Source: Anisakis pegreffii (lineage: Eukaryota; Nematoda; Chromadorea; Rhabditida; Anisakidae). Taken from it: a DNA stretch of 64,000 bases. Shown here piece after piece: positions 5,335 to 60,600 of the stretch. The position numbers and the translations under genes are program-made. The stretch is taken from positions 62,001 through 126,000 of the forward strand of contig JAPYMA010000628.1 of the NCBI GenBank assembly GCA_035041965.1. Direction: 5' to 3'. The notes below the pieces were generated by a model, which searched no databases, was not told where the DNA came from, and worked only from the letters and a program-made list of their open reading frames with translations. Numbering within the stretch: the stretch's first letter is position 1; each line of letters begins with the position of its first letter.

Positions 5335-8300
5335 GTAATTTCTTGAAGCATTCTTTCGGTAATTACCAGAGAAAACCACTCTGATTGCTCTGTTCTCACT
5401 TCGTTTAAGTGCTTTAACGCTAGAGATATCAATGAAACTGTTGATCTTCTACACTGTGAGTGACAATCTAGTCTAGAAAGAATTGGGTCGCCTAGAATGA
5501 ATCATTTGATTTTCGTCGATTTTGTGCAGAAACTCGCTTCGGTTCACGAGTGGGTTCAGCTTAAAAGCACTCCGTTAATGTGTTCGTAAACCGAGGTTGC
5601 ACTCTTTGCTGGTTTTTCTGACGATCAACACGTGAATTGAAGTCTTGATTTAGCTATTGCTAAGAAATGTCAATTGTTGTTCTAAAAATGCAAACAAAAT
5701 ACCTTCGAAGAAATGAACACAAAAAAGAGTTTGGCAATTGGTGATGCGTGAACATTCGTTATCTTGGGAATACTATCTTGTTTTAAGTGTAAAATATAAT
5801 CTGAAAATAGAGAGATGCGATATTTGATACGGCGGATCAATGTTAAATTCGTAGTTGATGGATATTGTTTTCACTTAGCATTCGACATGTTTAAATAAAA
5901 TGATTTATGATGTAGTCATTATTCGTTTACGAAGATGTGAACTTCGTTGTTGTTTGTGAATAAATTGATTTGTATTCGTTCGTTTGCATTTATTAGTTGA
6001 TTCAATTCTACTGAACAAACAAACTTATTATTATATTAACTCTTTTTTGATTTACTATACTACAGCGTTGTATTATTAACTGTAATAGTAATGGTAACAA
6101 TAACAACATCTAATATTAATACTAATAATAACAATGCTAACAATAATGATAAGAACGGTAACAATAATTTTCTTGTATTGTTATTATTAATAATGAAAGC
6201 AAAAGACAGCAAAATGAGAACTATTGTGTGAGAGTATGTACTCAGCACATTCCACAGATCATATTTCGTCTAAATTTTTCAGGTTCATTGAACAAAAAAA
6301 ACGACGCCTTCAATTCAGACAAACAAATAAACAGAGATAAGTTGACCGACTGGTTTGCTGCTGGTCATTACTTTAGTTAAATGGACTGCAGAAGTGTGCA
6401 GTGTCCATTCAGTACAACCACAAAAATGCTCTGGTCTTTCGGTCATTTTCGATCATCACTGTAATGATTTGCATGTATTGGTCATGCCAAATTTAAGTTT
6501 CATTCGTTATTGGAAGTCGGTGACCCAACGCCCTCTTGTGGTTCCATCGCATTTCTTCTGCTGTTCATTAACGCAATTGTATTATATTTATGTTTGTAGA
6601 ACATCAATTCAATTACCATGTGCGCTGAAAAATTTCACGCTGCCCCATATAGTACACGCTTTTTGGTAACGTGTCCGAACCGATTCAGATCCGTTACAGA
6701 ACAGAGCGCCTTCGTGGAAGGCAATTTTTAGCAACATACGCGAGTACACTTCAGCCTCATCTGCCCGAATTACGCTCGCGTTTAAGCTCATGCTTGCTCA
6801 TAGGCTTACAAGGAGCCAGAATACACCCATGCGTATCGCTACAAACGCTCGATGCCTCGAATTCCTTTGAACCGATTCTACCTCCGTCAACAGTCCCTAT
6901 GTTCTTCAAAGGATTCACTGAAAAACCACTCTTGTCAGATTAACTTTCAAAACAATTGGAAAACGTTCCAATATGTCCCAAATGGAGCGTATTATTACAA
7001 GTATATCATGAAATGGGTTCCGCAAGCTTTTAATTTGATGAACAAAAAAGGCATTCTTCATTCTTGCAATCACACCATGAAGCTTTTATCGACCTTAAGA
7101 GCTCCAGGTCCGAGAAGAACATTTAGGCTGTGAAATTTTGGGTTGGTTGGTCAGATTTTCGGTATGTGAATTTTGGTAAAGTTGAGTTAGAAATGACTGA
7201 AATGACAGAAGAAAAGAACTGATGCAATTGATTTAAATTGAGGTTTATGTGTTGATGAGCGATGTTTTTTGGGTGCATCGTTTTTGTGCTGTTTATTTTT
7301 TGAGTGGTCAACAGTCTTGTAAACAAGGTAAATAAACACCATAATCCAAACCAAATGCATTCATCGAATTGATCGCATTATTCACATCACCTCGCAACAA
7401 CGAATCGCCCGCTCACCGTTGAGAAAATCTTCCGCTCACGTTCACTAGCATCTTTTATCAAACTAACCCGTTCCATCGCTGATTCCTCAGCAAATATTTT
7501 CAGAGGATTTGAATTCGAAAAAGAAGTTTATGACGTTTTGCTCCGTATATGTTATGAAATGTGAGGTTTTGTCCCTTTACTAATTTCGAGTTATTTATGA
7601 AAAGGATTTCGTTAATTTATGTGATTGTTTATTTATAGCAAAGGCAAACTTTCCATTTTTAAAATGGTTTACCTATCGACTGTTCGTTGAAAACACCAAT
7701 ATAGCGACAAGAAAACTTCTGCCACAGGAATGCCATATAAAATGAGCGAGTTGTCAGCCTGAACTCAAAGCACACCGTGATTGCAACACTGCTACGAGAG
7801 TTGCTTTTCATGCGAAAAGCGTTGTTCTGTTTCTTTACATTTCTTTGAATTCTTCCTTGAATTCATTTGGTTGATACCTGAATTCTTTCGCATATCACCT
7901 TTGCGGAACTAGCATCATAAGTTTTCGAAATTAATGCTGGCATAAATGTTTGTATGGAGGAATCCCTATGAAATGCCATCGTAGACAATGGACTCATTCG
8001 AACAATTCCAAATACTACTGAGAACATTTTAGGCTCCTCACCCCGTTGCGAATCAAGTGTGGCAGATTTGGGGGACATTTTTATAAGGAGCCTCTCAAGA
8101 TATTGAGAACGATGTATGTCTAAGCACATTAGTGATTGAGGACTCATGAGCAGACGACTAAAATGATCAGTGAACAAGCAGCTGCTAGCAAACTTTTGAG
8201 CAATGAGCATGAACAGTTCAAAATATTCATTCCGCTAGTGCAGAGAGCAGAATATGATACTCGCAAGGGTGATCGGGTTGTGAGCAACTGGTGAGCAGCC

Positions 8301-12454: not shown

Positions 12455-15400
12455 TGGATGAATGCAAATAAATGGGAATTTCATTCGCATTCCATTTGCA
12501 CGACGTTGTCATGATGATAAATGGGTATGCATCATGCCACGAACACATTATTCAAATACGCGTCTGCTTGGCTGATAAGAAAGCTGAAAGTGCAGCTGCT
12601 ATAATGCATACGATTACGTTTGCGATCAGCAAACAGCTTCTCCCTAGCAATCCTGAATAATTGAGTGCGCTCGGTACATAAAATGTCGGAAGTCAGAATC
12701 TGTTGTGACTTTAAAATGAAAGTCTGCATTAGAAAAAGTTCTATCAAAAGCATGAAAATTAAATCGTTCCCAATTGAACGGAAGGAAGTCTGACATTACA
12801 TTTTGCTTCGTGCAATGGCTTGAATTAAGATTTGAGTGATTAACAGTTCATGTACCAATTTATCCTTCAAATACCTTCTAAAATATCAGCGTGAAGTAAG
12901 TTCCACAAAAAATCAAAAGATTAGAGACAACCAACGGCTAAGTAAGCACATATTTCACTTATTTTTTGACATTTATTCATAATGATGTCATAAAAGTAAT
13001 TGTATTATGAACCACATTATTTATTTAGACTGCTCACCTTTTTTAATATTTGGGCAGTTTCAATATTTTCGATATTTTGAGATTTGATGTAAAAGAACAC
13101 AACTCGTGAGTGAGGGATATCCATTCGCACTTAACTAATACTATATTCATTGAATTGCGGATTTTAATCGATCGTTTCTGCACTGGCAAATGAGTCTCCT
13201 ACGAGAACATAACATCAATTACTTTCTTCGTCCCATCTCATTCTCTTGCTACTGAATAAGTCATGCATTTAACCATACTTATAACTAACTCGTCGTGGTC
13301 TGCAATCGATCTTTCTGATTAAGAAATATTCCAAACTGAGTATTAACTGGCAACAAGTATGCTTCAAAAATCCATAAAAATGCTTCCGAAAGTATTCCTC
13401 TGGTTCCTTTTGAGTGAGACAATTTTGCGAGTGAATCGAATCGATTTTGTCGAAAGCGAGGAAAATGATTATACTAGGCATAAAAGATTCGGCGAGAATG
13501 CTCTTTTCTCTTATCTCAATCCCGTACTTTTTTAGTAATCAGCGGAGACGTTCAGAATCTCATATGGCCTTCAACATGACTCGAAACCGTCCGTTTCTTC
13601 ATGTTTTCCGAGAAATTTCAGTTCATATTGCAATAATTCACTTGAAGTCAGTTTCGAAATGCTTCCGAAAATTCCTCATAAACTTTTGATCTCGATGACT
13701 GATGATCTCGATCAAAATTCTCACTCCCAATTTTCGATGTTCGATCAGTCGTGAACAGCGGACAGAATGTAGATGGAAGTAATTGTTCCATGGAGTGTTG
13801 AAATGATTTGAAGTGATTGTGCCATGAATTCGAGAAGTGCACTTGAGAAAACGAATATTTCAACGAAGCAGCTATTCCATCGGTTTATTTCGACGTTTTT
13901 CTGTTCGTTCCAAATGTTTCCTTTTTTCAGCAACCCAGTCGATATGCATCCACGGCTGGATGCATATCCATATCCACTCGGCTCCATACCAGTCATTCAC
14001 TTACATATCTAGACGAGAAGCTTACACAATCAACGAAGGATACTCACATTTTATTTTCACGAATCTATGTGAATCTCATAACATGATGCATTATGTATTT
14101 CATCGGACTTGGTGCATTTATAAAAATGCATTCACGATGCACATTCAAATTTATGTGCTTTCTCGGATACATCAATGTAACTCCTCTACGCATTCATCTA
14201 TAAAATATACATCCACTGTAAAGAATTGTGGACTGTCGATTCAATCTTTATTCGGAAAATTACCTCAAACTTGTGTAATTAAACCACATACAATTAACAT
14301 GCATCACGAAAAAAATTATAATGCAAACAGTTAATCAAGAAAATAGGAAGTTATCATTTCAACTCCACATAGAGAAACTTATTAATGGTAGAACTTTCCT
14401 TTTATACTGATTTATTTCTGATCAACAGCTGCACCGCCTTATTAGACTTAATTCTTCGAACCTTGGAATGACTTTATCTTATCAAACTATCCCTTTTATC
14501 TTATCAAACTATCCCTCTGATCATTTTCTCACTGATTCTCTGAGGGATAGGTTGCCATATGATACTCAGTGGCTCTTCGCGTAAACAATCTACTATCAAT
14601 CAAACTAACAATATTGTTGTTAAATCATTCTAATAATTAAAATATCATTTTCAATTACCTCACGACTCAATAGTCGTGAAATCCACTAAAAATTCTCGGA
14701 AATTCTTACTTCCAACTCCAAACTTCGATTAACAAGTGATCTGTGAACAACGAGCATTCTCCAAAAATTCAAGAATTGCTTAGTGCACATTCAGTTGAGC
14801 AGATTCGATTCAGAAGTTGAACAAAGGGAATTTCAAATGAGATAAAACCTAATTGGCTATTCTTTAAAATTCATTTGCTTCCGAGTGAGTTAAAATCTCA
14901 TTCTATAGATTTTTTCACTCAGAATTCAATTTCTTCGAATTGTTCCCAGATGGCTTCTTGTTCGTTTCCAACTAACAGAGAATTTTCTTTGCATCAACAA
15001 TCGCTGAATGGATCAATTTTATGCATTTCAATTATTAACTTTTTTTCGCATTCGGCAGGAAGGAGAAAGAAAGACAAACGAGTAAAAGAAATAATAATTA
15101 TATGGTGTAGGAGGGAGAAAGTCTCGGCAAAAAATTATCAATATCAATGGTGAGTGACCGAGTTGATTTAATGTGTGATTTGGTGCTGCTGGCTAATGAT
15201 ACATACCTTGTATGCGTTTTGTATTAAACGGGTAGATACCGTTGCTACACAACGTAACGTTGATATGGTGTTCATTTTTATTTCTCGAATCATCCATTTT
15301 TGATGCACTCTCCGATTGGATTTGGTGCTGTTTTCATGACTAATGCATGAAATGAAATTATACGCAATTTTTTTGGATTTTAGCAAAAATATATACATCG

Positions 15401-40501: not shown

Positions 40502-42795
40502 TAAGCCAGTGATCAAAAAACGAACAAACTTCTCACTTTATCAGTCATCGACGTTGTCTTCTTTCAATTCACTATCATAAAGTTAAACTGAATACAGAGG
40601 TGAAACCAAATGGGGAGGCACAAGAACCCAACACTCTCCTATCGGAGGGTAGGGGAAAAGAAGAAAGAAAGGACAAGGGAAGGGAGAAAAGAGGGAAAAC
40701 AAACGTAGAAAAAGTCACCCCAATATTTAGGGCTCAGACCGTCTGTGCGCTCTCCGCAGGGAAAAATCCTGGCTACGCCATTGCTTGAATACTTTGCTAA
40801 GGTTAAGCAATTGTTTTATTAAAGCAAAAGCGTACATTTTCACAAAATCATATATAAGATAAAGTAATTTCCGTTGAATGATTATGTTTATGATTAGATA
40901 TATTATCAGTTAGATCATTGAAAATGTATCGAAAGTGGGTGATGATCACGCGGAATGAATGTTTGTTATGTATTTTGTGACTGAATGATAAATGAGTTTT
41001 ATAATATATCATTATGCATAAGACATGAATTTTTATTGTTTGTTATCCTTTCGAATATATGCTGAACATTTTAAGCGATTCTGTCTTTGGTTTTAATGGA
41101 TACGTCAAAAAGTGATATAACAAAACCTAACGCGATACTAAAAACTCTCACAAGGGACACAGCTATAGACTCGAAACCGTTATTCGATGTATGAGAAAAT
41201 ACATTATTAATAATTGGCGCTGTTTTAGTTCATATCATCTGTTATTTCACATCACTGAAGTGTTTTCTATTAAAAATACTAAAAACGTTATGGTTACTAC
41301 CAGGTCTTATGAAAACTGTCAGACATTCATTCAGTTAGTATATTATTATTATTAATATTACAATCAGTCTGAAAATCTGAAACATACGCAGTACGTTCAG
41401 TATTCTACAAAAAAACCTATAAGATATCATCAGATGACCGATTGTCTGCAGCAGTCGTTTACATATTACCACAATTATCAAAATGAAGGATATAGCTTTG
41501 AAATTGCAGCGATGATTCAAAACCGTTGAACAAATACCGAAACTTTTGATGTGATTCACGTTGTTTCTCGTTGGATGCAATAAAATTTCTTAATGTGTCT
41601 GAAAAACTTCATCTGGTTGCGATGGTTTCTCAGGATTTGGCAGTCGAATGAAGATTTTTTATGAAGATGACCTATTTTAGTGCATCCGGGAACGTTTTTG
41701 TGAGGTGCAATTTCAGATCATAGAGAATGTCTTGAACATTGTGTGCGAAACCGAATTATCTGCGTTGAGGTATTTGAAATAGTATGAGAACGTTTCAGTA
41801 AAGATTGCTATTCCATATTTATGATGAGTTTCATGAGGTAACAGTATTCATCAACTGAATGTCATCATATCTATCCATTTGTCATGGTTATCCTAATAGT
41901 TTTCTTCTAGCAGAAACAAACTTTTCATCATTGATTGCTACCATGAAGTCACATGGATTTTCTGAGAAAACTCATGCAATATGTTCGAAGTATTGAAATC
42001 GACTTGAACTGACTTGTGCACTTCGCAATAACCACAAACAGTTTCATTTATAAAAGAGATTTTGGCTAAACACTGAGTTATTGCGATGACATCAATACTC
42101 TCTCTGTTCAGTGGACATTGGCGCTTATAACTGTTCTCCAAAACTTAAATGAAGATTGATTCTCTGGAGTAAATAAGATTATGGCAAACTCGAATGCCGA
42201 GATTGATATCTAAAGTGATGCCCGAGCACTGAGTCGAAATAGAAAACTGTTCCATGTGCATAATATCGCAGAGGATTTTCTCTACAATTAAATGGAGAAA
42301 CACTGAAGATTGGAGAAATGCCGTCCGAGAAATCTAGCAATTCCCATTATTTATTTGACCGAATGTGAACGTTGCCGATGGATACTGCTTGCACCCATAG
42401 ATCTACCAAAAATCTCGAAGGTTTGTCATACAACTGAATGATGTCACTAAATCCTATGCATTTTTAATATATTACTATAGGAACATCATGAATATCACTT
42501 CCAATTAATCTGCATGCTCAGATTTGCTCGACAGTGCCATAATTTAATTGCAGCAAGTTCTCCATTATCAGAAATAAAAATCTCTTGCTAATGAATGATG
42601 CCTATTTCGAGATACATTGATAAATTTCTAAATTTATATCACACTGCAATGAACAATAGTCATTACTACAGAAAAATCGAGAGCACGATTTTCAGAACGT
42701 ATAAGCAATTAGTTTTGACAAGAAACCTTTTATTTTTCACAATGTTACACAGAGAAAACAAACCAAACAAGCAAACAATCAAAAAGTATGAATAC
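40502..42795. other. Intergenic, with a purine-rich repeat-like tract
   Basis: About 40600-40790 is unusually GC- and purine-rich (GGGAAGGGAGAAAAGAGGG) and ends AATCCTGGCTACGCCATTG, resembling the edge of an interspersed repeat. The rest is AT-rich without recognised genes. Confidence 0.4.
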
Positions 42796-42897
42796 TGTAA
42801 CGATTATTGGGTTTCCAACAATCGTTTATTCGTCCAATTACCCAAGTTTGAGGTAATTGGACGAATAAACGATTGTTGGAAACCTAGTAATCGTTAC

Positions 42898-42944
42898 ATG
42901 GTGCCCGAGGTGAGGTACGAACTCACGACCTTCAGATTATGAGA
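42898..42944 (+). promoter_or_regulatory. Primer-binding site with extended tRNA-Met complement
   Basis: Directly after an LTR end (CGTTACA) comes TGGTGCCCGAGGTGAGG, the complement of a tRNA 3' end including CCA. Complementarity continues through the T arm and anticodon arm: the reverse strand reads GTCTCATAATCTGAAGG with a CAT anticodon in a seven-base loop, matching the 3' half of elongator tRNA-Met. The inverted copy is at 46140-46186. A usual primer-binding site is about 18 nt; this spans about 47 nt. The D-arm half of a tRNA is absent, so it is not a tRNA gene. Confidence 0.7.
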
Positions 42945-42959
42945 CCCGAAGTGAGGTAG

Positions 42960-43505
42960 GTGGCCAGAACAAACCCAGTTGAAGCGGTAAAATTCATACT
43001 TAATCGAGGCGATGTCACCACAGCAAAAATCCGGCGTGATAAAATGATAGTCAGATGTGCAGGCAGCGATCAGCCAAATTCGGAAAAATGGTCGATCAAT
43101 TCCACATTACGTGAAGTCATCTTCAACGCATCTACAATCAGTGAAGAACAACGAACGGGAGTACTTTTACAACAGATCAGCAACTACCAGAAATCGTTTC
43201 CAGAAATGAGTGAAGGAGGGAATTTAAGCAATGAAGAAAAAGATGATGAAGAATTCCTGGAAGAAGTCGGCGGTGAATTCGAAAAAACCATTGAAGATAC
43301 CGAAGAACAAATTATGTCGATCGTCAGTCACTGGAAGCTTGGCCTAATAGCCTTGACGACGATACTATTGATCGTTGGGGCTGTCGCCGGCTTAATTTAT
43401 TTCCAGATATTCTGTGGATGGATGCGATTATCCCCTTGGAAATCGCGCCGGACAGATGTGGAACAGAAACGAACCTATCGAGAACTCTTAGCGGAAATTG
43501 ACTAA
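42960..43505 (+). pseudogene. Env-like transmembrane fragment, inverted-arm copy
   Basis: A frame of about 181 residues with no ATG near its start and a stop immediately upstream, so it is the C-terminal remnant of a longer protein. It contains an acidic, helix-prone stretch (about residues 80-120), one hydrophobic membrane segment (LIALTTILLIVGAVAGLIYF, about 131-150) and a basic cytoplasmic tail (WKSRR). This layout fits the membrane-proximal end of an envelope-like protein of an LTR element, but no diagnostic motif proves it. Relative to the minus-strand copy it lacks 33 nt between two TGGAACAGA repeats. Gag-pol is missing upstream, so it is unlikely to be expressed as a functional protein. 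Confidence 0.6.
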
Positions 43506-44155
43506 TCTCGTGAACCACAGCAGATATCGATCAAACCGCCTATGTGGAATAACGTTAAAGCAGTAAAACTTCTCCAAATATCAACCAACCACGACAATCA
43601 AACAACGGAGTTGTGAGTATGGCGGTATGGTGAATATGAACTAATAATTGAATAATGGATATCTACGAATAATTAACAAAATGAATGAATATATTGAAAA
43701 AATTATGAGTAATGAATATTGGATATCTGGAAATTCGGATGATTATAATGAATGAAATTGGAATGTAGATTATTAACTAAATAATTGGAATATATTTTAA
43801 ATGTATACACATATCGGTTATAATCGAATTGGATCAATATCGGTTGGTATGGGTATTGAATATATATTATTGGATCTAATAAATATTATGGAAAGTGGAC
43901 TATGGGCGTCAAGAAGTTTATTTAACGATTGGTACCACAATGGAGAGAAACATCTGTTCATTACACTCTTTGTGATGGGAGTGTCGCGATTATCGCGACT
44001 GTAAACGATTATCGCGATTGTAAATGGAAGATATCTAATTGATTGCTAGAGACCAGAGAGTATACCTATTTTATAAAGTTATTTTGGGAATCAAAACCGA
44101 GGAGCAACGAACATAAATCACCTCAGTGCTCAAAGATCGCGACAGAGGCTAAAGT

Positions 44156-45070
44156 TGCAACGATTGCTAAGTTTCCAACAATCGTTTATTCGTCCAGTTA
44201 CCTCAAATTTGGGTAATTAAACCTCGGATTAATATGAGCACGTCAAATATTCGAAAATATCAATCGCTCAAGTTATTCCTAGCTTATGTGGTCATGGTAA
44301 CAATTTAAATAATAATGATAGTAACAACAATATGACAATAATGTTATTAAAGAATAATCGTTTACGATATAATCAGATATAATAATACGAACTAATCAAA
44401 TAGTATAATCAAATAAGAAATATGATCAAATGATCAGGTAATAAGATTATCGATGATCAAATAATAAGTATCGAATAATAATAATAAGTATAACAATGAT
44501 AATAATAGCAACAGCAATGATGACAGTAATCATATTTATAAAGAGTAATGATTTACGAACGGATAAGGCCGAGAACTAGGATTATATTAGCGATATTGGT
44601 AATAATAACAAAATAATTCAAACTTATGGAACATTGAAAAGGATAATACGATCACAAATGAAGATGTCGCCCGAACTTTATTCTTATATACCTCAGGATG
44701 ATAGGCGTGGTGGTTTTTGATCCATGAGTAAAAGCGGAAGTTATCTGAATTGGTTTTAACTTTAAATATTTCTAAGAATAACTTATACCGGGGTTGAAGT
44801 GATCTCTGTTTAAGAGTGCGTTGCGATTATCTTGATTTAATCCAATTGTACTATTTTATTGTGATATTCGATAGCCATATTTCATGTGAAGATATAACTT
44901 TAGCCTCTGTCGCGATCTTTGAGCACTGAGGTGATTTATGTTCGTTGCTCCTCGGTGTTGATTCCCAAAATAACTTTATAAAATAGGTATACTCTCTGGT
45001 CTCTAGCAATCAATTAGATATCTTCCATTTACAATCGCGATAATCGTTTACAGTCGCGATAATCGCGACA
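44156..45070 (-). repeat. 3' LTR (about 915 bp)
   Basis: On the minus strand it begins TGTCGCGATTATCGCG and ends GCAATCGTTGCA, matching both ends of the longer LTR at 46187-47576. The CGCGATAATCG end is itself tandemly duplicated (45036-45070). Its first roughly 175 bp are repeated in inverted orientation at about 43981-44155. Confidence 0.7.
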
Positions 45071-45546
45071 CTCCCATCACAAAGAGTGTAATGAACAGAT
45101 GTTTCTCTCCATTGTGGTACCAATCGTTAAATAAACTTCTTAACGCCCATAGTCCACTTTCCATAATATTTATTAGATCCAATAATATATATTCAATACC
45201 CATACCAACCGATATTGATCCAATTCGATTATAACCGATATGTGTATACATTTAAAATATATTCCAATTATTTAGTTAATAATCTACATTCCAATTTCAT
45301 TCATTATAATCATCCGAATTTCCAGATATCCAATATTCATTACTCATAATTTTTTCAATATATTCATTCATTTTGTTAATTATTCGTAGATATCCATTAT
45401 TCAATTATTAGTTCATATTCACCATACCGCCATACTCACAACTCCGTTGTTTGATTGTCGTGGTTGGTTGATATTTGGAGAAGTTTTACTGCTTTAACGT
45501 TATTCCACATAGGCGGTTTGATCGATATCTGCTGTGGTTCACGAGA

Positions 45547-46125
45547 TTAGTCAATTTCCGTTAAGAGTTCTCGATAGGTTCGTTTCTGTTCCATAGACTT
45601 CATAGTTCGCATGCATATCTGTTCCACATCTGTCCGGCGCGATTTCCAAGGGGATAATCGCATCCATCCACAGAATATCTGGAAATAAATTAAGCCGGCG
45701 ACAGCCCCAACGATCAATAGTATCGTCGTCAAGGCTATTAGGCCAAGCTTCCAGTGACTGACGATCGACATAATTTGTTCTTCGGTATCTTCAATGGTTT
45801 TTTCGAATTCACCGCCGACTTCTTCCAGGAATTCTTCATCATCTTTTTCTTCATTGCTTAAATTCCCTCCTTCACTCATTTCTGGAAACGATTTCTGGTA
45901 GTTGCTGATCTGTTGTAAAAGTACTCCCGTTCGTTGTTCTTCACTGATTGTAGATGCGTTGAAGATGACTTCACGTAATGTGGAATTGATCGACCAATTT
46001 TCCGAATTTGGCTGATCGCTGCCTGCACATCTGACTATCATTTTATCACGCCGGATTTTTGCTGTGGTGACATCGCCTCGATTATGTATGAGTTTTGCCG
46101 CTTCAACTGGGTTTGTTCTGGCCAC
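45547..46125 (-). pseudogene. Env-like transmembrane fragment, main copy
   Basis: The equivalent frame of about 192 residues on the minus strand, nearly identical to the copy at 42960-43505. The few substitutions include EAVKFIL to EAAKLIH near the start. It keeps 11 extra residues (ICMRTMKSMEQ) in the tail. It also begins without an ATG directly after the primer-binding site, which implies that an internal deletion removed gag-pol and the N-terminal part of this protein. Confidence 0.6.
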
Positions 46126-46186
46126 CTACCTCACCTCGGGTCTCATAATCTGAAGGTTGTGAGTTCGTACCTCACCTCGGGCACCA

Positions 46187-47576
46187 TGTAACGATTACTA
46201 GGTTTCCAACAATCGTTTATTCGTCCAATTACCTCAAATTTGGGTAATTAAACCTCGGATTAATATAAGCACGTCAAATATTCGAGAATTTCAATCGCTC
46301 AAGTTATTCCTAGCTTATGTGGTCATGGTAGCAATTTAAATAATAATGATAGTAACAACAATATGACAATAATGTTATTAAAGAATAATCGTTTACGATA
46401 TAATCAGATATAATAATACGAACTAATCAATTAGTACAATCAAATAATAGGTATCGATATAATAATAAGTATAACAATGATAATAATAGCAACAGCAATG
46501 GTGATAATAATCATATTTATAAAGAGTAATGGTTTACGAACGGATAAGTATGAGAATAATTGAGTTATATAAACTATGATTACATTAGTGATACTGATAC
46601 TAGCAAACAATATTCATAATATCGATCAAATAAGAACTGTGATTATGTTAATGATATTGGAAATAATAACAAATTAATTCAAAGTTATCGAGCACTGAAA
46701 AAGATAATCCGATCACAAATGAAGGTGTCGCTACAACTTCGTTCATTTATACCTCAGGATGATAGGCGTGGTGGTTTTTGATTTCCAGCAATTGTTTGTG
46801 ATATTTGATAGCCTTATTTTATGTGAAAATATTTATTTTATTGTGATATTCGATAGCCATATTTTATGTGAAAATATAACTTTAGCCTCTGTCGCGATCT
46901 TTGAACACTGAGATGGTTTATGTTCGTTGCTCCTCGGTGTTGATTCCAGGGTTGAAGTGATCTCTGGTTAAAAGTGCGTTGCGATTCATATTTCATGTGA
47001 AGATATAACTTTACAAAATCGGCATAATCTTTGGTAGCTGATTGTCGTTGATTTAAGGGGATCAGTTAGATATCTCTTTCATTTACAATCACGATAATCG
47101 CGACAATTATATTAGGTATATTGGTAATAATAACAAAATAATTCAAAGTTATGAAGCATTGAAAAGAATAATACGATCACAAATGAAGATGTCGCCCCAA
47201 CTTCATCCTTTTATACCTCAGGATGATAGGCGTGGTGGTTTTTGATCCATGAGTAAAAGCGGAAGTTATCTGAATTGGTTTTAACTTTAATTATTTCTAA
47301 GAATAACTTATACCGGGGTTGAAGTGATCTCTGGTTAAGAGTGCGTTGCGATTATCTTGATTTAATCCAATTGTACTATTTTATTGTGATATTCGATAGC
47401 CATATTTCATGTGAAGATATAACTTTAGCCTCTGTCGCGATCTTTGAGCACTGAGGTGATTTATGTTCGTTGCTCCTCGGTGTTGATTCCCAAAATAACT
47501 TTATAAAATAAGTATACTCTCTGGTCTCTAGCAATCAGTTAGATATCCTCCATTTACAATCGCGATAATCGCAACA
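46187..47576 (-). repeat. 5' LTR (1390 bp) with internal duplication
   Basis: On the minus strand it runs TGTTGCG...CGTTACA. Compared with the LTR at 44156-45070 it carries an extra segment of about 460 bp: the block CTCAGGATGATAGGCGTGG occurs at about 46752 and again at about 47215. AT-rich triplet runs and GATATTGGTAATAATAAC blocks are shared with the other copy. Confidence 0.75.
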
Positions 47577-48085
47577 AATACTTTTGACAGATAATGCTTA
47601 TTCCAAGTTACAGCTAAATTTTTTGAAGGTCATATAGCTGATTGTGAGTAATTTCATAATACCATTGAAGCTTATAGTCTCTTTTTGATTAATGATACAC
47701 TACAACAAGAAAGGAGACATTCAAGCTATCTCTGTTGTCTCGTTTGCGAAGTTAAACAAATTCAAGAACGACTGTCTTCAGGCTCTGTACGCCTAGATTT
47801 AACCGACAAACTCAGAATTCTTGTGCCATGCAGTATTGAGCTTCAAGAAGTGTTCGAGGGGAAAGTTCTGGTTGCAGTGATGTGATCATACTCTCCTCAA
47901 ACTTCAGGAATCTCCTCACCAAGATATTGTTCAACAAAAGAACTCTTGATCTATTGAGAATGTTTGTATTTTGACATCGAAATGATACATCTTGACAGTT
48001 GATCAAAGGATAGCTTTGCTAGCTATGAGAGTCATCTTTTGAACAATTGATAAAAAGGACGATGTTCATCATTCGTATTCGTAGT
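47577..48085. other. Spacer between the LTR element and the next gene
   Basis: Both strands carry a 60-residue open frame (plus 47685-47885, minus 47812-48006), neither with a recognised family or convincing splice borders. It may hold an alternative 3' exon of the minus-strand gene upstream. Confidence 0.35.
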
Positions 48086-49915
48086 TCATCCGGTCACTGG
48101 AAGCAATTTATCGATTTCCTGTTTCATTAGCTGCTGATTGTCTTGAAATTTTTTGACTACACCTTGTACCAACGGATTGGTGTTATTCGAGAAGCTGTTC
48201 GCAATCACATCCATGTCATGCAATATTGATTTTATAACTGCGCTGACTGTTGTACTCTGATTTGGATTCACTTCTGAAAGTTCCACTCGATTTTTGGTTC
48301 AAAGCGATTCGGGAATGAACCATTTCGCTTCAGATGCATTTTAAAATATCAAAAGTTTAATGAGTTTTTCGAGTTTCTGAAAGTCATCACTTGAATTCAA
48401 CCAGTTGTCTTTCACCAATGCTGTAGTTTAGTGTTCATAATGTTCACATCGCTTTCGGCAATTCCTCTAACATACTCAATTTTACAAACGACGTCCTTAA
48501 TTAGAAACTGTGGGTAATCTACGAGGTAAAAGATAAATTCATTTGGTTGAAGTTAAATTTATTCAGTTTCCAGAGATTTTCATATTTTTGGAGTCCCATT
48601 TGACAAGCTCAACGAAACAGCAATTTATCAATAATGTGATAGTACAACACAAGGGAAAGAAACGTCAGCTGAATGTCAGTTTTGTATTGCTAGAGAGACC
48701 AAAAAATTCTGGTAGAACACTTAAAATTCATTGCATCTCCAGCTGGATTGCCATGATCTTTTTAAGTAAATTCGAATTCGAAGCAAAAAAGTTGACGCAA
48801 CCTCCATTAACCTTCAAATTTTCAACCAGAAGCGATAGAAATATGTGAGTGGAATTCTCAAAATACCAAGGTATGCTTCAACATGAGCATGGATCAGCTT
48901 CAGCGTGAGTCCCGTGATAGGTTTCAGTAGATATCTCAGAAGAAGTCTTATTGTTAGAGCCTGAGTATATCTCACTTGAGCCTAGTGTATACCTTACGCT
49001 CAGCCCCGTAGTAGTCTCTGTTCTAGGCTCGAAAATAACCTCATCCGGAGCCCGGGATAAACGGCATCCTGAACCTCATGTTAAGTCTAAGCGTTGGCCA
49101 AAGCTTAACCTTCTTTGCGCGTCTCATTCTGAGACCTAAAAGCCATCGAACTGAGCGTGAAGCTGAGCCTCAGCCTGAAGTAAGCCTAAGTTTGTACTTT
49201 AGTGTGTTTCAGTAGGTGAGAACAATTTTATTACGTTTGATGCACAACTTCGAGATATTGAGTTCAATTTTATCAAAAAGCAAATGTGGAGCAAATCCCG
49301 TCTTTACTTATCATTAGCATAATTTCGAATCCGATTCTCAATTTTTTACGTAGCATAAGAAAACTTCCAGATTTTGAATTTCGCTTTCGAAGTTCAAATA
49401 TACGATAGTCAACTTTCGAATTGGGACGGGATCGGAATTTCGACGAGCCTCATATGCTCCCAACAGTACACCTAATGAGATAGAAAATTTTCTCCTGCTA
49501 TCCGGCTTTGTTTATGATCGTTTGACATGAAATGCTTCAAGTGAATACTGTCTTTACCTGATAAATTCCATAACGTAGAATTCGTCCTCCCAAACCACGT
49601 CCCATTGATAGCACAATTATAGTCAATAATCTTTTTGATTAACAAGTCTGTTGTATTGACAGTCTGATTTTGACAATGACACGACGAAGACCTCTTCTGA
49701 AGTTTCTTTGGTGGTAGAACAAAATCAACGCTTTTATTGTTCGTCAACGATACCAGATTTGTTGTTGAAGAAGACCCCAAAGGATCCTCCTCGCCTATAA
49801 TTGTGACATGTGATATTAGGTCAAATTACAAATTTTTTAAATGAAGAATCTTTAATTCAACCTCAACATCATTATCATTTTCTTCGGGTAGCAGTCGAAG
49901 TTTCGAAATGCTCAT
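48086..49915 (-). CDS. Unidentified protein, tentative 4-exon model
   Basis: Proposed exons in coding order: 49915-49862 (MSISKLRLLPEENDNDVE), 49789-49558, a short exon starting DYPQFLIKDVV near 48500, and a last exon of about 210 nt ending at the TGA at 48086. The second exon is Ser/Asn-rich (TNLVSLTNNKSVDFVLPPKK...) and ends NGTWFGRTNSTLWNLS at a good donor (GTAAAG). The last exon is helical (VVKKFQDNQQLMKQEIDKLL), suggesting a short coiled coil. The first and second exons join in phase only through a weak acceptor (GGCGAG). The third exon could use either of two donors. The protein would be about 160 residues, and no family is recognised. The individual frames look coding; the assembly is uncertain. 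Confidence 0.42.
48880..49195. repeat. Degenerate GAGCCTCAG/CTGAGGCTC repeat tract
   Basis: Many imperfect copies of a GAGCCTGAG- or CTTAGGCT-like word at roughly 20-30 bp spacing, for example GAGCCTGAGTAT, GAGCCTAGTG and AGCTGAGCCTCAGCCTGA. Similar words occur near 27480 and 60330. It lies inside the proposed long intron of the gene ending at 48086. Confidence 0.5.
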
Positions 49916-52044: not shown

Positions 52045-54653
52045 TGCAGATCTAAAGTTTGCTTTTTTCATGGGTCAATCACATATTTATTACACACTTC
52101 TTATGAACGATATGGTTGTGTTCGCATGACTGTTCACATGCAAATTGCATGAAAAACATTCTTCTGTAGCACAAAAATTGTTTATTCGTCTCATTCATCA
52201 TTATTGATGCATGCAGTGAACAGCAATTGTAACAGTTCAAAATCGTTGCTTTGCTTGCCAATCGAATGAAAACTCAATTGTAACAACCACATCTTTGACA
52301 GTTTCGTAGTAGTGCCACTGAAGCGCTGCCTAGAACAACAATGAATTCCTCGAATCTACCATTGAATGAAGTACATTCTCCAGCGCATTAGCAATTCTAA
52401 TGATCTTTTCTAACACAGAGTATTTGTTCAAGTACTTCTTACAGAGAATATTTGTAAGCAACCAAATGTTTGCAGTTCAACCAATTTCGAGAGCTCTAGA
52501 GTACTAACTTGTGGGTTCAAATTTTTTGAAGTGTAGCATACAAATTGTGACAAATTTACATGCAAATATATATTTTATTCACAATCAGTCATTGATGAAC
52601 GTTTCGAACCTTTGCACAAGATTCTATTGAAACGAAATAGATGAAAGATTACAATCCTATCACAATGCGAACGTGAAGACGTTTTTCGATTCATTATTCA
52701 ACAACAAACGTAAAGCTTTTGAAATACAGTTCATTCATAAAAACGAATGTATACTAGAATTCATTCAACGTGTATCACAAAATGGCTCTCAACTGAACGT
52801 ACGCAAAACTCTGCTCGAAATTTTGATTAACATCAACCTGAACTGAGTAATGCATTCACACTCAATTAGTTCCCATTTTGCCAGGATCGGCTCACTAGCA
52901 GAAATGATTTTTGAAACAAGCAACTAGACGATGCGAGTGAATTGAGATAATGATAAGACGGATGCAATGGGGATAAAACTGAGTGTGAAATTCGCTCACA
53001 ATCAGTGTGAAAACAACTATGAGATAGCAAAGATTATTTTTTAATTCATTTCTTAGAATGAATAATTCGACTTAATCAACTTATTTTCGTCATATCACAA
53101 CGCAAATGACAATGACGCACTATGTGCACTTCAACAATTTATGTACATGACTGACGCGTTATATATACAGTAAATGAAATTTGAAAGTGGATATTTCACA
53201 AAATTACAAAGCAAAGCAATTAAAATATGACCTAAGTTGCATAAGCATTATTGTTTCTCTCTGAGAAAAAAAAACACATACACAGTGAATGGAAAAGCGA
53301 TCATCTACAGGAGGATAAATGACGAATTTTCTCTATTTTTCAAACGAACCTCCACCGTTGAGTCCTCTCTGATTGTGAGGATATAAAGTGAACCGAATCG
53401 ACGACCAACAGAGTCAGTCCCTTGACAAAGAGATAGTGAAATCTCTTCAAAAGTACAAATGTTCCAAATTTATAAAATCTTGAAAAACGTCACTGAAAAT
53501 TTCGCTCCATCTTCTTTTCAAAAAATTACAATAATGCCATTTTTTCTCAAATTCAACAATACTTAAAATAGAACGCACTTACTTACATTCTTAAAACTGA
53601 CTGAATTTCGTAACATGATAATATATAACACGATGGTGTTCATATAACATGATAAATGAATAAAGGTCGTCAAAGCCGAATCTGAAAGAAACATAGAAAC
53701 TCAAATAAAACGTTCTTTGAACTAAGTGATATGCTTCGAAAAGAACTGTTGAAATATCGATCGCTCAAAAAAATTTCTCGCATTCTTGACGGTCAATACA
53801 AAAACGAAATTTTTCTCTTTTTTTCGATTGACCGAAAAAATCTCCCGCAACCTTGAAACAACTCTCCGAATATCAATTAGAAATAAGGAACACAAAGTGC
53901 TATAATTCAATTCATGTTTCCAGCTACTAAATATGAATAAACTTTCAAAATCACCAACCAAACACATGCCGATGAATATGTGGCTGATAATGAAAAAGTT
54001 ATACAAAAAGTCCCAATTTTCACATAAAACTCTGCGCTAATGACTGATAACATTTCGGAAATGAATCAATCTCACGATCCGACGAAAATGCCAACTGAAT
54101 TATCAACCGACATATGAATATTTGTGAAGTGATGAGGTAATCGGTTACAAAAATGAGATTGGAAAAATAAAATAATCAATTATACAAATATGAAATAGAA
54201 TAATCATCAAAAAAAACATAAATAATCTCATCATACGTTATGATATGTTAATTTAGGAATAGAAATAATAGTGGTGATAACAATAACGATAATACTTCAA
54301 AGAGGAACAAGCATTCCACTTTAGAGACTAGCAGCAGTAATGTGCATAGTGTTATGAAAATCACCCTTTTCACTAGAAACGACTGACAAACAGACGCACG
54401 GACACAGAAGAAGAGAACAGCGCCTCAGGAAGTTATTCGATCACATCGACTATTTGACCAGCACAGAACGACCACTTTATCCCACCTGTTCAAAAACACA
54501 TGCTTAAAGTACCCATTCACTAGGGTTGCAACAGGCCTGCCTGCGAGACTAAAATCACCTCGTCGTTTCCACTGAATATTTCTCGAAAACAGTGATCGAA
54601 TAAAGCACTGGCGCAATTGGACTCTAGAGATTGTCCATAAAAGGAGAGTGCAT
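52045..54653. other. Intergenic, 3' side of Slingshot
   Basis: AT-rich. No gene recognised. The part nearest 54653 should be the Slingshot 3' UTR; no unambiguous polyadenylation signal was fixed. Confidence 0.4.
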
Positions 54654-57600
54654 CTATTGCGAAATGGTCAGCGCTCGGATTTCACTTTGTATTGAAGATA
54701 CAGCATTTTTGACGTATGAAGACGGCATCGGAACAGCGCCGAGAGTATGTCGTCTGTTCCAATCGGTCAATTCCCCTAAACGAAACGTCACCGGTGACGG
54801 CGGTGATCCTTTCTCATAAGCACCTTCCTTTCTTTGACGCTTATTCGTTTCTTCTCCTTCTTTTATCTCCGATGAAGATGATAACATTTCTCCTTTCGGC
54901 ATTGCTTCAACACGAACTTTCGCCTCAAAACTTCCGACCAAACTCCGAACCATACTACTCTTCTCTTCCAAATGACTGTACAATTTTGATGATCCACTAT
55001 CTATCTGAAAAACCGAGTGCTTTCAAATAATATTCTTCAGCCCTAAAAATAATATTTTCCGAATTGGAATGTTCTGATACCTTGCACTGATCAAGATAGC
55101 CAGCAATTGATACTAAAAATGGAGTAACATAATTTTCCATCAGATAATGCAGCCTCAATTCACCACAAAAAATTTCAATCCGCATGACTAGTGGTAATCA
55201 TACAACGAAACGTAATTTTGAAATATTTTTCAAAGACAACAAAAAGCAAGCAAACACGTTCGTGTAAGTAAAAGTAGATTGCAAAAGATTGCTTTCCAAT
55301 GACTCTCAATTGATTCTTTACTAAAGGATCATCACTGAAATTCACACTCAAATGCAGCGACAAATTGAAAGTTAAAACATTCATAAAAGTTACAATATTA
55401 TGCGAGAAATGATGTAATTTGAGATGCTTTCGTCGCAATTTACGCCTTTCGTTGCATATCGGTGAATCACAAATCAGCGGTGTTGACTGATGACGCGAAG
55501 TGAGCAATTTATCAAATTGGTCACGTTTTTTGAATGCATCTAACATACCTTAAAACATACATAACTCACTCATTCATCAATGATCGGTACATAGATAAAC
55601 ACATAGATATGATTTTAGATTACAAAATCTTGAAAAGAAAACAAGTCCGAAAACATTGAGAAAAAGACCTTAAAGTGATTATTTGCGTGAGATTAATGGA
55701 GAGTTCTCTCTGAAAGTAGTGAGTGAAAAACATTCGGGAAAAATAAATTATCGCAAATTATCTTCAGTTGAACAATCAGTCCACAGCATTCATGCAAAGG
55801 GCAGACATTATTTCACTCAATGATTCATTAATTTGATCATTCCTCAGAAATCACTACATCTCGAAAAAAATGAAGTGTTACGTATCTCCTTAGAAAAGAA
55901 AAATTAATATATGCCAACTATAATTCCCAAATAAATCTTTGTACAATGAAAATAAAATTGAAATGCTCTGTTAATAATACCTTCAAATGTTTTAAGCTGC
56001 TCAACAAAACCTTTATTTGGAGTGATACAGTCACGTTTTTTCTTAACGTGCTCCATTGCTTGCGATAAACCCCAACCATATTCCTTCAAATTTCCACTTT
56101 ATTCAGCTCATCCAAACTAGTAAAAATATTTCAAAATTATAGCCTTATTCAACACAATTTATTTCAAAAATGGAACCGAATGGGAACTCTCAGATGGGAT
56201 CAAAGTATGGAATTGTGATAGAATCTTTCACAATTCAACAGATGGGAAAAATTCGACTGAATCAGAATAAAAGTACAATATAACGGACAGCCGAGTGAAA
56301 AAAATATGATGATACCTTCATTGCGTAAGCAATAACCGTAGACGACGATCGACTGATACCTTTTTTACAATGGACTAGAACTGCACTACCCTTCTCCCTA
56401 AAATATACATTTCATGCTTCAGCCATTCAATAACGGTAAGTAAGCATAAAGTAAGCATACATTTGTTAAATTACCTGATTGAGTTAAAGCTAAAAATTGA
56501 ATCAGTTTGATTGCTGACAACATAAGAGGATAATTTGGAATGTAATCAAGGCTCTAGTCGCGAGTTTTACCATGCAAACGTTAAGACAGAACATCGAATC
56601 TTTAATTATCAGTTGGTGTATTTAAAACACAAGTTGTTTCCATTTATAATACCGACTGGATGACTTTGAAGAGAACTGAATGAATCTTGAAGAAATTCTC
56701 AAAGATATTGTTACTTTGCTTCTTTGATGAACTGATTCGTCTGATTCCAATATTTCAGCAGCTCACTGCTCGCTTTATCACAAACACGAATTTTCAAGTA
56801 TTTCAAACGAGCCGGAAAAAAATTCTCCACTTCAGTCGTAACGTTAACAATATATTCAATCCTGAAAAAGAACAGAACAATTCTGCACTCATTTCACCGA
56901 GTGATTCGATTCACGATTCATAAACTGAATAACTCTAAGATCCACAAAACGGATAAACAGATCCTCAACCAAATGGCGCACAACCTTCCTGTACTGAAAA
57001 TCGTCATCCCGTTCAACAATCAACAGTTTATCTGAATTTTAGAATCGGATTAACCATTCTTGCACCTATTCTAAAACTACCATTGCTTCGCCCACACAAC
57101 CAACATCAAAATAAGATTCTCCCCTTCCTCGCCTCCAGAAAAAGTATGCACTGACCCCACACTTTGTAGCCATTGCCAATCACATGCATTCCATTCAGTT
57201 CCTAGATAAAGATACGGAAAAATTTGTGATGCCTTGTCCATTTGACCCATTATAACCATCATCTGACGACTGATGAAGTCTTTATAATCGTTCAATTCAC
57301 ACCCCATACTTTCTTCTACCTGAACACTACCATGTTAAATAAATATTTTAATCCCCGCATTTACAAATACCAACAATCAATTTCACTTCAAAACCATCGA
57401 ACATACTTCAAAATAAGCAAGATATTCACTATTATTTTATCTGATTATCGAATAAAGGTTGTATGTGATGGATTTCTGAACCATTTCGAAATGTGAAACA
57501 GAATACTCGAAGATCATTTAACGAACGTAATCTTACGGTCAAATGAATGATTTTGAAAAGAGGACGATTTCCGAAGAGATTTGTTGAAACTCACCTTCAG

Positions 57601-60600
57601 ACGGATATCCTTACTTGTCACGTCATCCAGATCCACTGTTTGCATCACTTCTTTCAGGCATTCGTGAATTTTTGACTCCACTTCAAATAAATTGAACAGT
57701 AATTCCACGAAATACCGCAAAAATATGTATATCGTTTAATAAATTAATGAATAGTTCACCAAATTGATTATTTAAAAAAGTAATGAAGCAACAAGATTAT
57801 GTAATCACCAATGAATTAAATTAATAGATTACATTTATTCAAACCGATAATGATGACTATCAGTTGCTAACAATGAATAATAAATGACAACAAAATATAA
57901 ATGATAATAATAAATAATTAAAAATAACTTGAAGTGTCATTGATGGGTCGTTCGATGTTGAATCGTTCAGCATCGGCAATCGTCGCACCTAGATCACTCA
58001 TCGGTCCATCGCCACAATATTCCAAAGACGTTCTCTCCCTGAATCGTCACAAAGATTATTTTCGATTCGGTCACTCAGTATGGTTCACTTTCTGCTACAT
58101 ATTTCATTCAAGAATTATTTTATTTCAACGGAAATTGATCTGAAGAAATGGATTTGAGAACCATAAAGTTGAAAACGTTTCAACGGTAATGATATAAATC
58201 AACGAAAACGAATAAATACGATCAGAATTTCAAGAAAATAAGAACGGCCAAACAACCGACCATTCATTGCGGATTGCATCTTGCGATGAGATATTCTTCA
58301 GATAATAATCTGTCATACGTTCATCGGATCGTGCCGTCTGTGACGGCGAAGTTTTAGCGTTTTGAGCTTCCCGCAATTCCTCAAAGAATCGCATATGTGC
58401 ATTATAATGAGCTGGGAATAGTTACACAAAAATTCTACTCAGCTTTTCAATAATATACAAGAAAGTAAATGAACGTTAAAACATAGCATATACTTAAAAA
58501 CAAACACAGAACACTTCAGAAATTTCACAAGAAAAATCGTACAATCTGGATAAGAAGCTTTCTTTGGGTAGTGGTGGAAAACGTACTTCTACTGAACACG
58601 TCGCTGAATAAATCCTAAGTTTACATTGAAAATTTCGCCTAAACGATCGTAACTTACAAATCAAAACAAAAGCTCACTTCTAATGAGATAACGTTAATGT
58701 ACCACAAAATAAAATTCGATTGCATGACTACCTTATGAAGGCACTGAAACATAGTCCACATAGCTTGAACAGAAACAGGTCTGAATAAGTGGTGATATGA
58801 TTGATCAAAATCAATTGATATCCCACCATCGCCATCCAAACGAATATGCGTTGATGCATGAATCGGTATCACTACACCGATCCTGCAAGATTATTTACCA
58901 ATGGCATGAATTTCTTTTGATAACGATGTTGTTGGCAACACTATCATCGAGCATTACAAATGTCATTCTCAATAATGACAAAGAACTATAATAAAAGAAT
59001 TCTAATCTTCAAATAACACGGTCAGCAAAAGACGCATACATGTTCTAATTTCGATTGCGCGGAGAACTTTCAAAATAAATGTATCAACTGAATTCTTCAA
59101 AGTTTCGCTTCAAATTTCACACACCTAAGTTTTAAGGCTATGAAGTGGTTTCGCTGACGCGAAGACAAAATTTTGGAGAACAATTCAACTCAGATGAAAT
59201 GAAACGAAAACTGACGTTGCCTTCTCGTCATTAGTGATGCAGTCAAGTCCAAGTAGAACGCATTCTCGGATATTGAATGACAGATCCTTATCAGCACTAT
59301 TACAATCGTCATTACGATTCGAGGAACAAGAAGCAGGGCGGAATGAAGACGTGACAACGGCAAGATATCTGGCATGATCTTGTGATAGCGATACCAATGA
59401 TGAATAGGATGAAGTGGAACACGGGAATGAACAACACTCATCGAATTCATTATTGACTGATGCCGTCAAAGAGGATGTTGTTTGTAGACGAACAGCCATT
59501 GTGAGTGTGTGTTGAGGTGATATGATACGTAACATTGACTGCAGATGCTCCTCAATTTCATCTGAATTGAATCCAGTGACTGATTCATTAAGCTACCAAG
59601 TGTTTGCATGCAATCCATGACAACAACACTCGTTGTTACAGATTTCGTCGTCATAATATTAATCCATATTCTCTGGATAGGCGGACAAACGAAACTTCTT
59701 TTCTTCATTAAGTGAATGAATATTTTTTGTATTTCTCTGATCAATAACTCTGCAAACGATCAATTTCTGTGACTGTTTATTCAAAAACTTCACAGCCATG
59801 ATAGAATTCGTTGCTGTTGCGACTGATCTTTATTTTCAGATGGCAATCGAGAAGCATTAACACTAATTGTTAGCAGTATCATTTCAACATTTAATCATCG
59901 GATGGAAATCAAAATTATAAAGGAAGTAGTTCAAGCAATAGTATCGCTAACCATTCGTAGAAGTTGGTACCGTATTAGTACGGTCATGATTCAGTAAAAT
60001 CACTGCAGTTCCTTTAACGTAGAAGAAACATTCGCTTGAGGTAACACTTCTACATCGACGTGGTGATGATGAGTCGCATTCACTTATATCAACATCCTTC
60101 AATTTTACTGACTGTGTGCATTCAGTGCCGATATACAGTATATTCAAAAATGAACGTAAATTATCAAAATTTTCCAATTTTCAATTATGAAAGTTTTCAA
60201 GATCATGGAAATATGAATAACGTTTACAACCCAAATTAAAAAATCACGTCTCAGTTCCTCAACTTTTTGGAGAATCAATGCCCTGGAATACAAGCAGACT
60301 TACGAAAGGCCTAATATAATATCAAGTTTGAGGCTCAGGTTTTTATTCAGGTAGGTGCTCGGGGTAGTACGGTAAATACTTTCTTCACTCTTTTCTTTAA
60401 TTTATCAATTCTTATTTGATGCAAGATGCTCAATTGACGTATTCATTAGGAAAAAACACTTTTAGAACACTTCGTTTGTTCAGTACACAACTTTTTCTTG
60501 AGTAAACGCTGATAAGAAAAGTCACACACTCATAAATTATAAGACGACTTAACATTCGCCATACGTAACTGATTCGTATTTTCATTACTCTTACGATTAG

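Follow-up and report, generated by a model that had tools for sequence, protein, structure and literature searches.

Several described systems come close to parts of the structure reported here, as far as the available portions of the respective publications go. In human immunodeficiency virus 1 (HIV-1), self-priming of minus-strand strong-stop DNA depends on the trans-activation response (TAR) stem-loop (PMC4668388). Autointegration, including inverted products, has also been described for retroviral and Ty DNA (PMC2644782, PMC4751563). In Brugia malayi, 60 of the 120 22-mers of spliced leader 1 (SL1) outside the SL RNA arrays lie within 1 kb of PAO elements, and they were read as trans-spliced leaders that integrated with the element (PMC7181701). 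Here, we describe a palindromic long terminal repeat (LTR) element of Anisakis pegreffii, at positions 42796-47576 of the window, i.e., the whole 64,000-nucleotide stretch that we analyzed (contig JAPYMA010000628.1; C464:62001-126000 in our numbering of an assembly of 122.7 Mb and 1740 contigs). On sequence grounds, we assign its family to the BEL/Pao LTR retrotransposons. With moderate confidence, we propose that it records one integration of a mis-made BEL/Pao complementary DNA (cDNA), in which errors of reverse transcription, consisting of three template switches by one strand, took place before integration.

Compared with what these sources describe in the parts available, the locus resembles HIV-1 TAR as a stem-loop of the R region that is linked to strong-stop self-priming; however, it is an integrated relic, and the sense of its loop misfits the simplest same-strand fold-back. 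Like the autointegration products of Ty1 and retroviruses, it has an LTR end at an internal site and inverted segments, but those products are circles, whereas the unit here is linear and integrated, has true outer ends and lacks a duplication at its inner joins. In contrast to the Brugia PAO elements, SL1 here opens a shared 3' block of the LTR, is often followed by GTAATT, and forms a hairpin. A literature search, with most subscription papers outside it, gave no report that we recognized as describing a palindromic integrated LTR element, and none of SL1 at the start of R or as a switch point, while SL1 beside PAO was already known.

The palindrome and its insertion site

The two inverted arms occupy 42836-44156 on the plus strand and 44896-46249 on the minus strand. 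They are identical in 1311 of 1321 aligned columns, with 10 mismatches (0.76%) and one gap of 33 nucleotides (nt). The first-pass annotation had described such near-identical arms, and they are real in the assembly, although the left arm starts about 9 bases, and the right arm ends about 14 bases, further out than it had proposed. The 6.5-kb region 42000-48500 contains 2352 inverted 20-mers, compared with at most 3 in any of 200 mononucleotide shuffles, so the symmetry of the arms is not due to chance.

The outer ends of the structure are LTR ends: TGTAACG begins at 42796 on the left, and CGCAACA ends at 47576 on the right. Directly outside both lies AATAC (42791-42795 and 47577-47581), and the perfect duplication claimed by the annotation is thus present. 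The chance of a 5-bp match at two fixed places, given the base composition, is about 0.0015. We compared both LTR ends of nine other family copies. A perfect 5-bp duplication occurs in six of them (on contigs C400, C383, C706, C1409, C587 and C318), the copy in C10 has one mismatch, that in C229 has no duplication, and C1739 is a compound case that was left unscored; C1688 and C1043 have no comparable pair of LTR ends and are outside this count. A 5-bp target-site duplication is the rule in this family.

Read along the minus strand, the element consists of an A-type U3 piece, a B-type LTR, a primer binding site (PBS) with a tRNA copy, an env-like fragment, a probable polypurine tract (PPT), the middle LTR, a turn, and the inverted arm; a second turn, at the SL1 hairpin, leads into the last 47 nt of U5, which end at the terminus 42796. 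The A-type U3 piece (471 nt, 47106-47576, minus strand, with its LTR terminus at 47576) stands ahead of the complete B-type LTR (919 nt, 46187-47105, minus strand), which starts with TGTCGCG at 47105, and the right LTR (46187-47576) is a composite of these two LTR types. The 68-nt shared 3' block of the B-type LTR (46187-46254) includes, at the probable start of R, an SL1-like 22-mer with one mismatch to the host SL1 (46233-46254, minus strand; the equivalent in the middle LTR is 44202-44223). There follow, all on the minus strand, the PBS with its copy of tRNA-Met (46140-46186), the right env-like 3' fragment (45547-46125, an open frame of 192 amino acids), a PPT judged probable from its position (45071-45079), and the 915-nt middle LTR (44156-45070), with a join between its U5 terminus at 44156 and position 174 of U3 in the inverted arm.

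On the plus strand, the left arm contains 63 nt of R-U5, the PBS with its tRNA copy (42899-42945), an env-like 3' fragment (42960-43505, an open frame of 181 amino acids, 33 nt shorter than the right copy), a PPT (43973-43981, probable from its position and because the 3' LTR of the C400 copy is preceded by the same context), and the first 174 nt of U3 (43982-44155), which end where the terminus of the middle LTR joins. A second, partial PBS-like tract, CCCGAAGTGAGGTA (42945-42958, plus strand), lies ahead of the env-like fragment. The outer left end (42796-42842, minus strand) is the last 47 nt of U5, inverted relative to the left arm, with the LTR terminus facing the flank. These leftmost 47 bases form a second, smaller inversion with 42852-42898 (45 of 47 pairs, i.e., 2 mismatches in 47), and they also have 2 mismatches in 47 against the right LTR. 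The proposed site of this outer strand switch is the SL1 stem-loop AATTACC-CAAGTTTGA-GGTAATT (42836-42858, plus strand), whose loop has the SL1 sense on the plus strand.

Exact LTR termini thus stand at the seams and ends, at 42796, 44156, 47105 and 47576. The element encloses a complete small cDNA (LTR-PBS-env fragment-LTR), both of whose exact termini are joined to the interior of other LTR sequence, and one of the joined pieces is its own inverted partial sister. All three LTR stretches are on the minus strand, and the same-strand repeats of the region are these LTR copies. No 5-bp duplication is found at the ends of the inner complete element; AATAC flanks only the palindromic structure as a whole.

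It was suggested that other copies with the same inverted arm be sought in the genome. Neither the inverted arm nor the same junction of PBS, tRNA copy and env-like fragment was found elsewhere in the assembly, where these pattern counts are lower bounds. The view of the element as one transposed unit is therefore upheld in the sense of one integration event, but not in the sense of a propagating palindromic family, as there is a single copy. No paralogous empty site was found: each of the 400-base flanks occurs only once in the assembly.

Two ordinary copies of the family have nearly identical LTRs, with 3 differences in 850 positions in C400 and 4 in 744 in C383. The divergence of the arms is about as low as this, so the arms were probably identical at insertion. 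The LTR pieces of the element, in contrast, differ among themselves (A-type U3 versus middle LTR, 15 of 465; B-type versus middle LTR, 50 of 678), and the element was therefore probably chimeric when it was made. The A-type piece and the middle LTR are nearer to C10 (8.1 and 6.9%) than to C400 (15.2 and 12.4%), while the B-type LTR is slightly nearer to C400 (9.0%) than to C10 (10.6%). The pieces derive from at least two parental lineages. Because of these different lineages, arm divergence and LTR-LTR divergence are not comparable in a simple form; the lineages also argue for template switching between different RNAs.

By reference to relatives or the tRNA gene, three of the changes between the arms were assigned to the left arm (42988, 42993, 43910) and four to the right (opposite 42927, 43000, 43088, 43491), with three having no assignable side (42846, 42950, 44095). 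The 33 nt that the left arm lacks lie between two copies of TGGAACAGA, a 9-nt direct repeat, which would suggest a loss as in slippage. Since the PBS-tRNA-env junction is shared by the two arms and was not found anywhere else, either one arm copies the other or both copy one source.

The SL1 hairpin and the primer tRNA copy

The 22-mer GGTTTAATTACCCAAGTTTGAG is the SL1 exon as it occurs in the SL1 genes of the host. The assembly contains tandem units of 5S rRNA and SL1 RNA, which points to a nematode host; in the two contigs examined, the 5S rRNA scores 112.6 bits and complete SL1 genes score 78 bits. The three LTR stretches match the Rfam SL1 family (RF00198) with 31.5, 30.8 and 27.9 bits (E 0.01-0.06). 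All are below the gathering score of 75, and only the 5' stem-loop is in common, so we did not accept these stretches as SL1 RNA genes. Other sub-threshold Rfam matches at the tip of the element (mir-983, mir-184, snR96) were taken as chance matches to a hairpin.

We surveyed 23 LTR ends of the family, excluding the left tip. SL1 is exact in 13 of them, AATAAA occurs within the 68-nt block in 22, and GTAATT follows directly after SL1 in 15, as it does in the host SL1 RNA. Upstream of SL1, the family LTRs belong to dissimilar types. An ungapped comparison of 17 LTR ends (136 pairs) gave a mean pairwise identity of 0.64 in the 10 nt before SL1 and of 0.965 in the 10 nt from its first nucleotide. 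Given this step and the dissimilar upstream types, the R region of the family LTR most likely starts at nucleotide 1 of SL1.

The predicted energy of the SL1 stem is -7.7 to -8.2 kcal/mol (four 30-nt sequences folded), and the outer inversion is located on the AATTACC/GGTAATT arms of this stem, 5 nt from the start of R. Mirror symmetry extends over 45 of 47 bases at the tip; in C121, C987 and C1430 and in the window's two ordinary LTRs, it does not exceed about 11. When up to three mismatches were allowed, the hairpin pattern occurred at 13 places, with the tip of the window element alone having none. We considered C121 and C987 as further hairpin inversions and rejected them, as they have perfect 11-bp stems at which the symmetry stops; in C1430, it stops earlier. 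The places in C130, C289, C657, C1043, C1065 and C1688, as well as a second place in C121, were judged from the matched letters, the symmetry check or earlier loci only.

SL1 22-mers occur at 205 places in the genome within one mismatch. Outside the family, we sampled 20 exact 22-mers among the matches listed (100 of the 205), with array contigs excluded. Among these 20 (L067-L086), the SL1 RNA intron is absent from all 20, about nine dissimilar upstream types can be distinguished by eye, and seven share one LTR-type end, consisting of SL1, then ATTAAAAGATTAACGAC or AGTAAAAGATTAACGAC, and ending in GTTACA. In L068, an LTR-type end is followed by PBS-like sequence. A trans-spliced origin is possible for the sampled SL1 types outside the family. 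Long-range stems in R were compared with 200 shuffles at 20 sampled SL1-headed sites: two clearly beat the shuffles (reached by 0 and 1 of them), in four sites of one type, 9-16 of the 200 shuffles did as well, and in the other 14, at least 23 did; we therefore make no claim of such stems. Elsewhere in the window, an SL1-like 22-mer with one mismatch (14264-14285, minus strand) lies in a stretch (14217-14294) that is 76% like the U5 of C361, and it is probably part of another LTR.

In each arm, the PBS extends into a 47-nt complement of the 3' half of tRNA-Met(CAT). Relative to the tRNA gene plus CCA, the left copy is identical at 46 of 47 positions, its one difference being PBS nucleotide 19, which corresponds to tRNA position 58; the right copy is identical at 45 of 47, with differences at nucleotides 19 and 29. 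A pattern search of the assembly with the 3' part of the tRNA found 35 places, namely 33 gene-type matches and the two element copies. Position 58 is A in all 33 gene-type matches and T in both element copies. (A tandem array at C1730, about 52206-58990, holds 30 of the 33 tRNA-Met(CAT)-type matches, with a spacing of about 215 or 310 bases in most cases.) Six PBS sequences matched with up to two mismatches, i.e., those in C361, C383, C400 and C1043 and two in the window, all carry the position-58-type base, so the change is older than the window element. According to the parts available of a review, plus-strand synthesis normally halts at the 1-methyladenosine (m1A) at position 58 of the primer, but longer products occur (PMC13191261). 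Misincorporation opposite m1A, as described in the available part of another report, is mainly of dATP in one context, in which m1A is followed by U, and this is not the context here (PMC4787781). We infer that the position-58 change probably marks m1A modification of the host tRNA-Met. A further observation on the PBS is that C1043 (L042, about 5570-5880) has two U5-PBS units whose PBS start 197 nt apart, perhaps through another error of reverse transcription.

Formation of the element and rival explanations

We propose that the element would have begun in a particle with at least two different RNAs of the family, presumably co-packaged. A deleted derivative would have been reverse transcribed, its PBS fused to the env-like 3' end and extended by 47 nt copied from the primer tRNA by read-through. 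The first switch, near the start of R, would have used the 7-bp arms of the SL1 hairpin and produced the small outer inversion. The second, from U3 position 174 to a complete, oppositely oriented sister cDNA at its exact U5 end, would have created the large palindrome. In the third, the strand would have run past the exact U3 end of this sister and on within another U3, so that the right LTR became composite. The product would have kept true LTR ends, allowing normal insertion by integrase with a 5-bp duplication. Three switches of one strand account for every seam, while joining of sister cDNAs could explain two. We infer that reverse transcriptase made the joins, as well as their order and direction.

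An inversion before or during integration, and not a later rearrangement, had already been put forward in the first-pass annotation. This is supported by the duplication around the whole, by joins that fall on LTR termini or the R hairpin, and by the little-diverged arms. Of the mechanisms then named, strand switching agrees with the structure, but plain self-priming fits less well because of the sense of the SL1 loop. On the plus strand, the free end is the reverse complement of U5 (47 nt), followed by the loop in SL1 sense. We rejected a plain fold-back of strong-stop DNA on its own hairpin, which predicts a loop of minus sense. There are two conceivable paths: 47-nt strong-stop DNA, paused at the SL1 stem, might move to another minus strand by means of its 7-nt arm, or a longer minus strand might switch to strong-stop DNA. 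The observed order and the exact terminus fit both paths.

It is important to consider the points that weigh against errors of reverse transcription as the origin. A loop in SL1 sense requires a switch to another strand or one made while copying continued along a longer minus strand. At the 44155/44156 and 47105/47106 joins, the two sides have 0-1 nt in common, and integrase or end-joining would account for this equally well. Gene conversion between the arms could lower their apparent age. Finally, the first of the two PBS in C1043 diverges after nucleotide 18, and the position-58 mark is unreadable there.

The main rival is that sister cDNAs were joined before integration, either by integrase (autointegration) or by host end-joining, and that the concatemer then integrated. 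We consider this unlikely, though more probable than the other alternatives. The autointegration described for retroviral and Ty DNA offers a precedent, and the two joins just mentioned each set an exact LTR terminus against an LTR interior. However, no 5-bp duplication is present at those seams, and cDNA joining alone leaves the switch at the SL1 hairpin and the tRNA copy unexplained. We did not class the element as an autointegration product, as it has terminus-to-interior joins but lacks a stagger duplication of the size made by integrase.

A still less probable course of events is that two nested or neighboring copies were altered after integration by chromosomal inversion, deletion and gene conversion. 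Gene conversion can keep inverted repeats alike, and a scrambled cluster of the same family does exist, at C361 117000-126900. Yet this course demands base-precise changes at two LTR termini together with a perfect AATAC pair outside, and no duplication accompanies the inner complete element. By our reasoning, moreover, inverting the loop between the arms restores no simple nested arrangement. An assembly or library artefact is very improbable: fold-back chimeras yield inverted repeats, but here the arms differ by 10 substitutions and the 33-nt gap, a different LTR stretch forms the loop, the LTR at the right end is absent from the left, and a family-type 5-bp duplication surrounds the whole.

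Relatives of the element and its meaning

The copy in C400 (L039) is a full-length relative, whose LTR, PBS and 3' part of the second frame match the window copy. Its gag-pol frame has Pfam matches to DUF1759, a reverse transcriptase, the Pao peptidase A17 and an integrase. Further BEL/Pao features are LTRs of the form TG...CA, the 5-bp duplication, and the PBS TGGTGCCCGAGG directly after the LTR. The window copy is a deletion derivative of a BEL/Pao element, and a search for gag-pol domains in it was negative. Whereas the C400 element has these pol domains and a second long frame, the window copy retains no more of the second frame than a 3' fragment and is both palindromic and chimeric.

We read the second frame as env-like from its place and its hydrophobic stretches. 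Pfam gave no family for this frame in C400, and for the two env-like fragments it gave only one match, MARCHF6_C, below the cut-off. In protein searches, the C400 frame had two matches, both from filarial nematodes and both with PF18701: in Acanthocheilonema viteae, an 'Integrase core domain family protein' (30% identity, 37% of the query covered), and in Onchocerca ochengi, an unnamed product (26% identity, 53% of the query covered). A scan of C400 for splice acceptors found four matches to TTT(N)CAG or TTTTAG, one of which (L039 6175) is about 480 nt before the second frame. In the scrambled C361 cluster (L043 1910-6805), LTR termini are joined to interiors of LTRs or gag, and GC-rich short repeats lie between two LTR pieces. 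The cluster includes one inverted junction between a reverse-complemented LTR and env-PPT-U3 (about L043 5460-5473, with 9 nt, AATAATTGA, shared by eye), but we did not accept it as a second case, as the cluster is too scrambled.

We also put forward, tentatively, a broader idea that we judge possible but rather less probable than the origin proposed above. SL1 may form the first 22 nt of R in nematode BEL/Pao elements, so that their RNAs would be SL1-headed without trans-splicing. Its TAR-like hairpin may favor strand switching, of which the palindrome would be a preserved product, and read-through of the tRNA past position 58 may be recorded in the 23-nt PBS.

What makes the locus interesting is its clean record of molecular events, together with the SL1 hairpin, rather than novelty as a kind of mobile element. 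Inverted cDNA by-products have been described for retroviruses and Ty; here, the true LTR ends of a chromosomal copy suggest that integration can be carried through with a palindromic product. Judging from the seams, strand switching may be linked to the SL1 hairpin in R, and tRNA read-through may become visible in old elements through the position-58 mark. If R does start with SL1, this would also give retrotransposon RNAs a host-like mRNA head.

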